Source of the DNA: Parapedobacter indicus
GTDB taxonomy: Bacteria; Bacteroidota; Bacteroidia; Sphingobacteriales; Sphingobacteriaceae
Length of the DNA: 64,000 nt
Direction of reading: 5' to 3'
NCBI RefSeq assembly: GCF_900113765.1
Contig: NZ_FOQO01000002.1
Span: forward strand, 124,001-188,000
How positions within the stretch are numbered: the first letter of the stretch is position 1; the number at the start of each line of letters is the position of its first letter. Made by a program: the position numbers and the translations under genes. Below are positions 3,724 to 59,370 of this stretch, in pieces. Below the pieces are notes generated by a model. It was not told the DNA's origin. It saw nothing but the letters and a program-made list of their open reading frames with translations, and ran no database searches.

Positions 3724-4431
3724 TTAATAGAACTGAAGTCCCAATTTAATCTGAAACATACCCATCGGGAATTTCTCTTTTGTTGTATGTTCGATATACT
3801 CTCCGGTTTCCTCATTATATTCACTGTTATAGGAATCATATTTGAACGCCCCGGATTCGTATCCCGCCGTCAAGGTCACCTTCTTATACCGTAAATTAAT
3901 TCCCACATCACTTTTCAAACCAAATAACACTTCTTCTAGGTCTTCCATTTCACTCATTGAAGTCAAAATGGTAGGCGCTAGTTTCACAAATGCGTCGGCA
4001 TAAAAATTCTCCAACGGATTGAAAGAAATAACGGGGCCAAGCTTGACTCCCACGGTTGTTAAATCGGTCTTTTCAGTATAGTCTGGATCATCCGGATCAT
4101 TCCACGTTACGGGATTATAGCCAAGAGAGAGAAAGGAGGCATCAAGTCCAACCTTAAAAAGGCCAGCAATAGGTTCCGAATGCATGAAAAAATATTTTCC
4201 TAGTTCGAAGTTCAACCCCGTCGGCGCGGAATAGGCGTCGTCGAGTTCGCCATCGTTTAACTGTTTAAGGAAATCGTTATTCAGGAAACTTGCGCCAAAA
4301 CGCAAATAAAATTTCCCGAAATCGGGCTCGCTATACTGTCGTTGGCCTACAACCGTTGCTTGTTGAGCCTGGGCAAAAAACAAGGTTCCGAAAGCAATGC
4401 ACAGCATCGCTGATAATTTGGTGATGTTCAT
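3724..4431 (-). CDS. Secreted outer-membrane beta-barrel-like protein
   Basis: This 235-aa protein starts with a signal peptide (cleavage near FFAQAQQ, residues 19-23). It continues as a barrel-like chain: FYLRFGASFLNNDFL, KVGLDASFLSLGYN, VGVKLGPVISFNP, VTLTAGYESGAF and a final IKLGLQFY strand ending in Tyr. Acidic loops (NDPDDPDYTE, SEMEDLEEV) fit surface loops, perhaps cation-binding. It is 32 bases downstream of the PEGA-like gene and probably co-transcribed with it. The family is not recognised beyond a generic porin-like outer-membrane protein. Confidence 0.75.
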   Translation of the reverse strand: MNITKLSAMLCIAFGTLFFAQAQQATVVGQRQYSEPDFGKFYLRFGASFLNNDFLKQLNDGELDDAYSAPTGLNFELGKYFFMHSEPIAGLFKVGLDASFLSLGYNPVTWNDPDDPDYTEKTDLTTVGVKLGPVISFNPLENFYADAFVKLAPTILTSMSEMEDLEEVLFGLKSDVGINLRYKKVTLTAGYESGAFKYDSYNSEYNEETGEYIEHTTKEKFPMGMFQIKLGLQFY

Positions 4432-55721: not shown

Positions 55722-56072
55722 ATGAAAGAGTTCGTTATTCTATTCAGGCAACCTACCGGCAGTTATCAGAAACCCCTACCCGAAGCCATGGAAGCACTGG
55801 AGAAAAAATGGGCCGATTGGACGGGCGGAATCGCTGCCCAAGGGAAATTGGCCAGTCAGGGCATCCGTCTGGCGTACGATGGCCGGGTGTTGAAATCCAG
55901 CGGCGTGGTTACCGACGGTCCGTTTGCCGAGCTACGTGAAATCTTGGGTGGTTTTATGGTTGTACGTGCCGCAGACTACGATGAGGCGGTAACCTTAGCA
56001 CACGGCTGCCCAGTATTGGAAACCGGCGGAAGCGTAGAAATAAGGCCGATTTATCAAGAATCGCCTGCCTAG
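55722..56072 (+). CDS. YCII/DGPF-domain protein
   Basis: This 116-aa protein has the YCII-related fold with the DGPF motif (VTDGPFAELREILGGFMVV, DGPF at 65-68). DGPF proteins are the usual genomic partner of ECF42 sigma factors, and that is the case here: the next gene's GTG start overlaps this stop (TAGTG). The biochemical role of DGPF proteins is unclear. Confidence 0.9.
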   Translation: MKEFVILFRQPTGSYQKPLPEAMEALEKKWADWTGGIAAQGKLASQGIRLAYDGRVLKSSGVVTDGPFAELREILGGFMVVRAADYDEAVTLAHGCPVLETGGSVEIRPIYQESPA

Positions 56073-57322
56073 TGCCGACATCACCGGATACCCAGTTCCT
56101 GCTGAAACAATTGTTTCAGCAGGAATTTTCGAAGATTGTCGCCGTCATCAGCAGCCGATACGGATTGGCGCATGTGGAGATTGCCGAGGACCTGGTGTCC
56201 GATACGTTCCTATCAGCAACCGAGCATTGGACAACGGATGGCTTACCTCCTAACCCAACGGCTTGGTTGTACGCGGTAGCAAAGCAAAAAACACTGGCCC
56301 ATTTCCGCCGTGAGAACATCTATGCCAAGAAGGTGGCGCCCGCACTCACCGCATCCGCGGAATTGGCTACATCGTCTCCAGAGATCGATTTTTCGCCTCA
56401 ATATATCCGGGATAGCCAATTGAAGCTGTTTTTCGCAATCTGTACGCCATTGATCGCTGGCGAAGCCCAAATCGCCCTCGCACTCCGCGTATTGTGTGGA
56501 TTTGGCATCGACGAAATCGCCATGGCCTTCCTCACCAATAAAGAGACGATCAATAAGCGGTTGGTCCGTGCCAAGGCGAAGCTACGTACGGAAGGTGTTC
56601 GTATGGAACTTCCGCCCGAGCCGGAAATTGCCGACCGCCTCAATCGTGTATTACACATCATTTACCTGCTTTTTAACGAAGGATATTATTCACGTACCCA
56701 AGATGAGGTAATCCGCAGGGAGCTTTGTTTGGAAGCGATGCGATTGGCTCTTTTCCTTACGGAAAGCGAACTCACCAACCGTCCTGAAACGCAGGCATTG
56801 CTGGCACTGATGTGTTTTCATGCCTCCCGTTTTGATGCACGGCAGACCGCCGACGGCGGCATCGTATTATATGGCCAACAGGATAGGCGTAAATGGGATG
56901 CCGACCTCATCGCACAGGGCATCCAATACCTTGACCGTTCCGCACGGGGTAACAGACTAAGTTCCTATCACTTGGAAGCCCGTATTGCCCAGTTGCACTG
57001 CCTCCCGGGCGACGGCCCCGATAAATGGGAAAAAATCCTTCAGCTGCATAACCAGTTGCTGATGTTGCAATACAGCCCGGCATTGGCTTTGAATCGGACT
57101 TACGCACTTTACCGCGCCCGCGGTGCAGCAAAAGCGTTGCCGGAAGCACGCAAACTCCAATTAGAAACCAATCATTTTTATTGGGTATTATTAGCCGAAT
57201 TGCTACAGCATACCCATCCACAGGAAGCTATTATTTACCTAAAGCGTGCTCTTGAACAGGCTAGAACAATACCGGAGCAGCAGTTGATCCACGAACGCAT
57301 CGATCGGCTATCTAAAGCGTAA
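56072..57322 (+). CDS. ECF42-type sigma factor with long C-terminal domain
   Basis: The start is GTG overlapping the upstream stop. The 416-aa product has sigma region 2 (about 15-80, VEIAEDLVSDTFLSATEHW, PTAWLYAVAKQKTLAHFRR), region 4 (about 115-170, ALRVLCGFGIDEIAMAFLTNKETINKRLVRAKAKLR), then a large C-terminal DUF6596/TPR-like region (about 185-416, LLFNEGYYSRTQDEVIRRELCLEAMRLALFL). This is the ECF42 design, in which the C-terminal domain replaces a separate anti-sigma factor. Neighbours fit. Confidence 0.92.
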   Translation: MPTSPDTQFLLKQLFQQEFSKIVAVISSRYGLAHVEIAEDLVSDTFLSATEHWTTDGLPPNPTAWLYAVAKQKTLAHFRRENIYAKKVAPALTASAELATSSPEIDFSPQYIRDSQLKLFFAICTPLIAGEAQIALALRVLCGFGIDEIAMAFLTNKETINKRLVRAKAKLRTEGVRMELPPEPEIADRLNRVLHIIYLLFNEGYYSRTQDEVIRRELCLEAMRLALFLTESELTNRPETQALLALMCFHASRFDARQTADGGIVLYGQQDRRKWDADLIAQGIQYLDRSARGNRLSSYHLEARIAQLHCLPGDGPDKWEKILQLHNQLLMLQYSPALALNRTYALYRARGAAKALPEARKLQLETNHFYWVLLAELLQHTHPQEAIIYLKRALEQARTIPEQQLIHERIDRLSKA

Positions 57323-57394
57323 AAAAAGAACCCCGTTCCATGAAAGGAAACGGGGCTCCGCCCCAATGGGGTTAGGGGCTATCAACCTAAACCT
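57321..57394 (-). ncRNA. Candidate small RNA with own promoter and terminator
   Basis: On the minus strand, a TACCTTTG box (57406 to 57399) would start a transcript near 57393. The next about 70 bases contain GCCCC, GGGGC and GCCCC blocks that can pair in two exclusive ways. They end in a 7-bp hairpin (CCCCGTT / AACGGGG, 57331-57355) followed by TTCTTTTTTT. No open frame or ribosome site is inside and no minus-strand gene follows. The T-run overlaps the ECF42 stop codon. The family was not recognised. Confidence 0.6.
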
Positions 57395-57398
57395 AAGA

Positions 57399-57429
57399 CA
57401 AAGGTAGGGAAAAATAGTAACTTACCGAA
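57399..57429 (-). promoter_or_regulatory. Promoter of candidate small RNA
   Basis: The minus strand has TTC, exactly 20 bases, then TACCTTTG. This is one mismatch from the TTG-N20-TAnnTTTG pattern of the window. Confidence 0.55.
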
Positions 57430-57531: not shown

Positions 57532-59370
57532 ATGGAATTTTTAGATGGGGTTAATGCCCTAACCTTAGTATTTGTAGCACTTTTGATTCTGGCCATCGCT
57601 TATCGGTTTTACGGCATCTTCATGGCCCACCGGGTATTGCGCCTCAATGGAAACAATTTGACGCCAGCGGTATCACTTGCCGACGGACGGGACTACGTAG
57701 CCACCAACCGGAACGTACTGTTCGGCCACCATTTTGCGGCTATCGCTGCGGCAGGGCCATTGGTGGGGCCGGTGCTCGCCGCACAGTTCGGCTATCTCCC
57801 CGGAGCATTATGGATCCTGATCGGCTGTGTACTGGGGGGCGGGGTACATGATATGGTGGTACTTTTTGCCTCCGTACGGCACAAGGGACAAAGTCTGGCC
57901 ACCATTGCATCAAAGGAAATCGGCACAACTACCGGCATGGTTGCCGGAGTGGCCGTACTATTTATATTGGTCCTCACACTGGCAGGGCTGTCACTTGCAT
58001 GCATCAGTGCCATGCACGAAGCCTCTTGGTCGTTGTTCACCGTACTGATTACCATGCCAATAGCGATCATCATGGGCCTGATTATGCGATACCGGCAAAA
58101 CAGCGTTACCTTTGCCAGTATACTGGGAGGCGTCCTCCTCCTCATCGGTATCATTGGTGGCCACGGCCTGATGCAATACGAAACCATCAGCAATCTCTTT
58201 CATTGGAATATCCAGACAATTTCCATTGCCATTGCCGTCTATGGCCTATTGGCCTCCATATTGCCCATATGGCTGTTGCTGGTACCGCGTGATTACCTTT
58301 CTACCTACTTGAAAATCGGCACCATTCTGATGCTGGCTGTGGGCATTATATTCGTACATCCTACACTGGAAATGCCGGCCATCACCGAATTCGCCGCAGG
58401 TGGCGGCCCCATCATCGGCGGGCCGGTGCTGCCATTCATTTTCATCGTCATTGCCTGCGGTGCCATCTCCGGTTTCCATGCCATCATCGCCACCGGCACC
58501 ACTCCGAAAATGCTCGGGAACGAAAAAGATATTTTATTTGTTGGCTATGGAGCGATGCTGGTAGAGGGCTTTGTTGCATTAATGGCGTTGATCGCCGCCT
58601 GTACGCTTATGCCGGGCGACTATTTTGCCATTAATACGCCCACGCAGGCCTATGAAGGCTTCCTAGCAGCTAACCCAGCCCTCCACCAGGTGGATTTACC
58701 GCATTTCGTGGAAAAAATCGGTGTGGAACTTCAAGGTCGTACCGGAGGAGCCGTATCGCTCGCCGTCGGTATGGCGCATATTTTCAACCGCATTCCGTTT
58801 ATGGATGAAGTGATGGCCTATTGGTACAACTTTGCCATCATGTTTGAGGCGGTGTTTATCCTCACCGCCATTGACGCGGGTACACGCGTGGGACGCTTCT
58901 TCCTACAGGAGATGCTGGGAACGGTCATCCCCAAATTTGGCGACAAAAATTGGGTACCCGGTATGATTATCAGTAGCGTGATTTTCACATTCTGTTGGGG
59001 ATACCTGGTTTATACCGGCAACGTAAGCAGCATTTGGCCGCTATTTGGAATCAGTAATCAGCTATTAGCGGCATGCGGTCTAATCGTATGTACAACCATG
59101 CTCATTCGGCTAAACCGCGGTAAATACGCGCTGGTTTCGGCCATACCAGGGATATTTATGGCCGCCATTACCTTCTGGGCTGGGTACCTTCAGGTAGTCG
59201 ACATTTATTTGCCCAATGGGCAATACCTATTGGCCAGTCTGGCTATTTTAGCCATGCTGTTAATGGCCTTTGTTTTTGTCGGGGCCTTCCGCAAGTGGTA
59301 CCAGCTTCTGGGGATTCCCGCTGAACAAACGGATAGCTACGGTGAACGCGTAAGAGAAGTGGTTCGCTAA
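57532..59370 (+). CDS. cstA: Carbon starvation protein A (peptide/pyruvate transporter)
   Basis: ATG 57532 (MEFLDGVNALTLVF) is used because the longer frame begins with TTG 57520. The 612-aa product has about 15-16 membrane helices and the CstA hallmarks DGRDYVATNRNVLFGHHFAAIAAAGPLVGPVLAAQFGYLPGALWILIG (shown by its parts at residues about 43-90) and GGGVHDMVVLF. CstA family members take up peptides or pyruvate, often under carbon limitation. It is single and not in an operon with a sensor. Confidence 0.93.
   Translation: MEFLDGVNALTLVFVALLILAIAYRFYGIFMAHRVLRLNGNNLTPAVSLADGRDYVATNRNVLFGHHFAAIAAAGPLVGPVLAAQFGYLPGALWILIGCVLGGGVHDMVVLFASVRHKGQSLATIASKEIGTTTGMVAGVAVLFILVLTLAGLSLACISAMHEASWSLFTVLITMPIAIIMGLIMRYRQNSVTFASILGGVLLLIGIIGGHGLMQYETISNLFHWNIQTISIAIAVYGLLASILPIWLLLVPRDYLSTYLKIGTILMLAVGIIFVHPTLEMPAITEFAAGGGPIIGGPVLPFIFIVIACGAISGFHAIIATGTTPKMLGNEKDILFVGYGAMLVEGFVALMALIAACTLMPGDYFAINTPTQAYEGFLAANPALHQVDLPHFVEKIGVELQGRTGGAVSLAVGMAHIFNRIPFMDEVMAYWYNFAIMFEAVFILTAIDAGTRVGRFFLQEMLGTVIPKFGDKNWVPGMIISSVIFTFCWGYLVYTGNVSSIWPLFGISNQLLAACGLIVCTTMLIRLNRGKYALVSAIPGIFMAAITFWAGYLQVVDIYLPNGQYLLASLAILAMLLMAFVFVGAFRKWYQLLGIPAEQTDSYGERVREVVR

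Follow-up and report, generated by a model that had tools for sequence, protein, structure and literature searches.

Does the short interval between the sigma factor gene annotated as ECF42 and cstA, in the 64,000 nt stretch of Parapedobacter indicus DNA analysed here (the window), encode a free-standing small RNA, and how might such an RNA act? The initial annotation had proposed a compact small RNA or an orphan attenuator on the minus strand. The elements it described, TTC-N20-TACCTTTG, the blocks GCCCC, GGGGC and GCCCC, and a T-run, are all present on that strand (Table 1). The TTC lies 20 nt from TACCTTTG, and three bases separate the latter from the first base of the invariant 5′ end, called the seed below. 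GCCCC (57375–57379) and GGGGC (57360–57364) are the arms of the first hairpin; the second GCCCC lies within the 5′ arm of the terminator. The T-run (57321–57327) overlaps the stop codon of the ECF42 gene (CDS 56072–57322), as had been stated, and no gene follows on the minus strand, the unit ending in this convergent gene. The length, estimated at about 70–75 bases, is 75 nt if position 57395, where TAGG begins, is taken as the start of the RNA. The terminator, described earlier as a 7 bp hairpin, has 13 pairs (57359–57327), seven of which are G-C.

Table 1. Features of the predicted small RNA locus and its neighbours in the window.
Feature	Position	Strand	Basis
Predicted small RNA, 75 nt (TAGG to end of T-run)	57321–57395	−	16-copy family; fold beats 200 of 200 shuffles
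Invariant 5′ end (seed), TAGGTTTAGGTTGA	57382–57395	−	Exact 14-mer copies; mostly unpaired
Promoter element TACCTTTG, Bacteroidota TAnnTTTG type	57399–57406	−	Pattern at fixed spacing over copies
TTC, proposed upstream promoter box (initial annotation)	57427–57429	−	Presence in sequence
First hairpin, GCCCC-N10-GGGGC	57360–57379	−	Predicted fold
Terminator hairpin, 13 pairs, with T-run	57321–57359	−	Fold; arms vary among copies and pair with their own partner
Convergent sigma factor gene (ECF42 of the initial annotation), Sigma70_r2 and DUF6596	56072–57322	+	
Divergent neighbour cstA (PF02554)	57532–59370	+	

The minus strand of the locus folds at −32 kcal/mol (z −2.87), a value equalled by none of 200 shuffles, while the plus-strand fold is weaker (z −1.35, 20 of 200 shuffles equally good). 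The predicted structure consists of two separate hairpins preceded by an unpaired 5′ end, UAGGUUUAGGUUGA. When the entire window was compared with Rfam 15, one tRNA alone reached its gathering threshold; the best model at the small RNA locus was anti-hemB (21.7 bits, 49.5 needed), and nothing relevant was found at 13 loci bearing other copies. Among the matches listed for literature searches of open-licence PMC texts, none described a family with this seed.

The seed 14-mer occurs exactly 16 times in the 6.16 Mb host genome, the reversed-pattern control not once. Since, in addition, a nucleotide search of this genome with the window unit gave 12 more matches at E ≤ 5e-6, the unit is more than a chance sequence. 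In all 15 other copies the shared 5′ end is followed by a hairpin. Unit length is 58–75 nt in the 15 of 16 copies where a T-run was found; in the sixteenth (L024) a hairpin follows the seed and the rule detects no T-run. Two further places in the host genome are variants. L127 (C8:103722) carries TAGGATTAGGTTGA followed by a strong hairpin and is likely a seventeenth copy, one that a search for the exact 14-mer does not pick up. At L128 (C21:77128) a degenerate seed, and at L358 and L368 of two relatives an intact one, is followed by a CCGGATGAC-like sequence extending to CGTTACACTACC, which replaces the usual hairpin and is perhaps another repeated element.

Beyond the host, the exact 14-mer was found in 67 of 151 sampled Sphingobacteriaceae genomes. 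All nine genomes of the genus, host included, have it, with 3–16 copies each and 81 in total, against a single match of the reversed control over the nine together. Genus g15, which is probably Olivibacter (L111 and L190 share sequence), has 5–12 copies in each of five genomes; other genera of the family have 0–3, by count alone near the control (0–3). In a phylum-wide sample, seed plus T-run occurred in two of 296 genomes, both from Sphingobacteriaceae. Named genomes contributed at least 80 loci with at least 81 copies, mostly from Sphingobacterium, Pedobacter, Parapedobacter and Olivibacter. Among the named-genome matches listed there are also five loci in Prolixibacteraceae, two copies in tandem in Fulvivirga and some matches probably due to chance. 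The Prolixibacteraceae loci (L161, L172, L187, L199, L224) and the Fulvivirga pair (L231) have seed and terminator and do not follow efp. Of 11 viral contigs with the seed, one (L405, minus strand 4138–4200) combines it with a stable, convincing hairpin and a T-run, and the other ten look like chance matches. A query of 84 nt from the window copy had no match among plasmids.

For comparison across copies we assembled a set of 99. It contains 63 distinct sequences from the 64 retrieved out of 65 non-host copies of the genus, and 20 of the 33 copies of genus g15; a few members match the seed by chance within genes. Of the 99, 98 passed the T-run rule, which is lenient enough to let chance matches through as well.

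We consider that the locus belongs to a multicopy family of small RNAs that would act in trans, their common 5′ end serving as a seed for pairing with mRNAs (probability about 0.6). This reading draws on the copy number, the conserved 5′ end, the fixed promoter spacing, stems which differ and still pair, and the association with efp. The family-wide conservation of 5′ end, hairpin and promoter spacing likewise favours the compact free-standing small RNA originally suggested.

What might the seed bind? Its mean unpaired probability is 0.81 over the 99 copies, compared with 0.39 for the remainder of the unit, and, written as RNA, it contains two UAGGUU units in tandem, (UAGGUU)(UAGGUU)GA. Seed pairing energies did not stand out from those of shuffled seeds: 32 of 200 shuffles were as good at 66 SusC-like gene starts and 24 of 200 at 449 other starts. 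For the best of 11 SusC windows, 3 of 40 shuffles were as good, and on retesting 44 of 400 and 36 of 300. Words complementary to the seed were not enriched near gene starts, and genome-wide the complement with up to two mismatches was found at 35 sites, not counting the 16 copies, whereas the reversed control gave 84. Among the 14 of these 35 sites inspected, L140 (two mismatches, sense orientation, 25 nt past a possible ATG) stays as the single target candidate. These tests would overlook targets that are few in number or weakly paired, since gene starts were taken as the farthest ATG of mechanically defined open reading frames and the tests covered about 0.73 Mb of the genome, the window and 30 SusC loci.

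The main rival to mRNA pairing is that the RNAs bind a protein, the two tandem UAGGUU units titrating an RNA-binding regulator. Such a role would fit the absence of any apparent class of complementary targets for an unvarying 5′ end, as well as the repeat itself; in the efp copies of Pedobacter, further UAG units stand just before the seed. There is, however, no candidate protein: PF00076 had no match in the host genome, whereas a Bacteroides control genome did match, so that an RRM protein was not found. The unpaired 5′-terminal position, moreover, also fits an mRNA seed. We regard titration as the sole function as unlikely. Hfq was not detected in the host genome; five of 14 control genomes gave a match, Bacteroides not among them.

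Three mutually unrelated patterns recur at constant distances upstream of the seed. In the 50 nt preceding the 99 copies TAnnTT[TC]G occurs 33 times, 29 of them at −12 to −10 relative to the seed; for CGTT, 26 of 44 occurrences fall at −12/−11, and for TGGCA, 18 of 23 at −26/−25. Under strict rules the 99 copies comprise 29 with TAnnTT[TC]G, 26 with CGTT, 18 with TGGCA, 10 efp copies and 16 with none of these, the last including some chance matches in genes. For the 16 host copies the corresponding numbers are six, six, two, one and one. A promoter pattern at fixed spacing thus precedes 14 of them, the efp copy being one of the other two; L024 is of the ABfr type by looser rules and in the CGTT class by strict ones. 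CGTT copies, whose promoters we take to be ECF-like, have ACAA at −35 to −29, where it occurs 22 times in the 26 copies of this class and twice in the other 73. In the TGGCA class, which includes two host copies, the window copy not among them, a GC follows about 12 bases after TGGCA. This arrangement resembles a −24/−12 promoter of sigma-54, and rpoN is present in the host genome. With the usual distances between promoter and start, all three spacings predict that transcription would start close to where the seed begins. These fixed spacings are the strongest indication that the seed would be the 5′ end of an RNA and that the copies would be genes.

In the host genome, 14 nt separate one copy from the preceding stop codon of efp (TIGR00038 match, C19:276471–277019), and a copy likewise follows efp in Sphingobacterium, Pedobacter and Olivibacter. 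Among the named-genome matches listed, a frame ending in ..ERVK or similar precedes 48 of 81 copies; the distance from the start of its stop codon to the seed is 8–28 nt in 47 of these 48 and 63 nt in one, and 44 of the 46 comparable frames are at least 60% identical, ungapped, to the host EF-P. The two below 60% are probably offset. At 30 efp loci from outside the family, drawn from 124 genomes with an efp match, no seed was found within 130 nt past the presumed stop, a weak negative since several of the loci were read in a wrong frame. Two genomes from two other genera of the family (G013, G014) have two strong efp matches each. Because of the same placement in Sphingobacterium, Pedobacter and Olivibacter, the efp copy may be the ancestral one.

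The efp-associated terminators were compared in an alignment of 23 sequences, chosen by hand for a common hairpin register and with Pedobacter-type hairpins left out. Its eight pairs hold in 98.9% of cells, a value reached by one of 500 shuffles. Five cells are changed on both sides (none of 500 shuffles), and six of the eight pairs are invariant. Such two-sided changes affect two pairs, a count that 48 of 500 shuffles also attained, and there was no excess of further pair types in this alignment.

That many copies stand just downstream of genes, efp foremost, and that each has a terminator, could also mean that they are terminator cassettes which have spread and have no function in trans, the 14 nt being kept for termination or through recent copying. 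Against this speak the three promoter patterns at exact distances. Divergence, furthermore, is seen in the terminator stems and not in the 14 nt, the seed remaining an exact word across genera, a property for which the exact-match search itself selects. We find this explanation quite improbable.

As the flanks of the 16 host copies are unrelated except in two pairs, it appears that the unit has spread on its own. In one case (L002 and L006) about 160 nt are common on the 3′ side, containing an opposite-strand leader and a ATGAAAAGACAA start, which looks like the broken start of a transporter gene. At its own position the window copy is not conserved: in the two relatives whose cstA orthologues are near full-length (91% and 87% identity), the 1.5 kb flanks examined lack the seed. 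The conservation expected from the initial annotation is accordingly found for seed, hairpin and promoter spacing across copies, and not for the copy at this exact locus; family members turn over while the family persists. In several relatives of the genus (L388, L389, L393, L394, L386, L390) cstA-like stretches are broken or partial. Dispersed copies, turnover at single loci and hairpins are also what a mobile or REP-like palindromic, self-copying element would leave. Only seed and hairpin are common, however, with matching flanks in no more than those two pairs, and the promoters differ among copies, which makes such an element very improbable.

Hairpin stems differ among the 99 distinct copies and yet remain paired in the predicted folds. 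For 58 distinct terminator 5′ arms, the mean pairing energy was −18.0 kcal/mol with the copy's own 3′ arm and −8.1 kcal/mol with the arms of other copies; 2.6% of the cross-copy pairs reached the own-partner mean. Among the genus copies, 55 have the GCCCC hairpin, and between them they show 32 distinct outer stems, taken from predicted folds and hence paired by construction. The orphan attenuator or riboswitch-like leader, in which the GGGGC of the window copy could pair with either GCCCC block, was rejected because there is no downstream gene on the minus strand and the first hairpin, present in 13 of the 16 host copies, is missing from the other three and from all 20 genus g15 copies examined, the alternative pairing also finding no counterpart in a fold of two separate hairpins. 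In many copies lacking the GCCCC hairpin (L098, L110, L113, L371, L376 and others) the loop of the terminator contains CCC (TTCCCAA, ATCCCAAA), which may be another conserved feature.

For the trans-acting RNA family favoured here, the following course of events can be envisaged. The ancestral copy would probably have been the efp 3′ UTR with its terminator. The unit of seed and terminator would then have multiplied in Parapedobacter, its copies being brought under different promoters. Each RNA would begin with the common unpaired 14 nt and end in a copy-specific terminator hairpin. The window copy would be driven by a housekeeping-type TAnnTTTG promoter, its siblings by sigma-54-like or CGTT-type promoters, so that different signals would yield RNAs with a common 5′ end. 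Our guess is that this end would work in trans through base pairing to mRNAs. Tentatively, one may go further and picture an RNA hub with many inputs, in which a 14 nt 5′ end born at efp has been rewired to housekeeping, sigma-54 and CGTT-type promoters with the start set on the seed, and which works without an Hfq or RRM chaperone, possibly titrating a protein via UAGGUU; this we would put as somewhat doubtful. Sixteen copies with an identical first 14 nt and, apparently, at least three kinds of promoter point to one common regulatory output. If the reading is correct, the family would provide a clear natural record of how a 3′-UTR element becomes a free-standing small RNA family acquiring different promoters.

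Several multicopy small RNAs from other bacteria invite comparison. Vibrio Qrr small RNAs are multicopy and have sigma-54 promoters. The Neisseria sibling small RNAs resemble the present family in having several near-identical copies with a common active region. The same holds for Listeria LhrC (PMC13350326); the LhrC model of Rfam scored 17.1 bits at the window locus, with 110 needed. Compared with LhrC, the Neisseria siblings and Qrr, the occurrence of several promoter types within one family is unusual. Small RNAs derived from 3′ UTRs offer another parallel, one copy here using the efp 3′ end while most are free-standing; an efp-derived small RNA did not appear among the open-licence PMC matches listed.

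The closest analogue in design is FopS of Bacteroides thetaiotaomicron. As described, FopS comprises 14 paralogues of about 65–70 nt with an unpaired 5′ seed, has sigma-ABfr promoters with one copy derived from a 3′ UTR, and represses SusC translation, RbpB acting as antagonist (PMC11697453); the family includes GibS (PMC11697453, PMC7366714). Like FopS as portrayed there, the present family is multicopy (16 copies, 58–75 nt), with an unpaired 5′ stretch and a terminator. Membership of FopS was considered and is not supported, failing on two points, seed similarity and the RRM partner: the resemblance to its R1′ seed is striking by eye, but a local alignment of TAGATTTAAGGTT with TAGGTTTAGGTT, based on the printed R1′ consensus only, scores 8, and 12.7–24.8% of shuffles score as high. 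An 18 nt piece of the FopS consensus had no match in 148 genomes of the phylum, which says little because this sample may hold no Bacteroides. The RRM-1 protein RbpB, partner of FopS in that text, has no counterpart detected in the host genome (PF00076). The text gives FopS canonical sigma-ABfr promoters, whereas by strict rules this type precedes six of the 16 host copies and 29 of all 99, others being under sigma-54-like and CGTT promoters. The 3′-UTR copy belongs to efp here and to BT_4331 in the case of FopS-14, the main text leaving open whether BT_4331 is efp (PMC11697453). FopS is described as targeting SusC near the start codon, whereas the 66 SusC-like starts gave no significant pairing excess for our seed. 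The family shares the design of FopS, with a seed of apparently unrelated sequence. If the reading is correct, Sphingobacteriaceae would have a FopS-like multicopy small RNA system, a second example of the way in which global regulation by RNA may operate in Bacteroidota where Hfq is not detectable.
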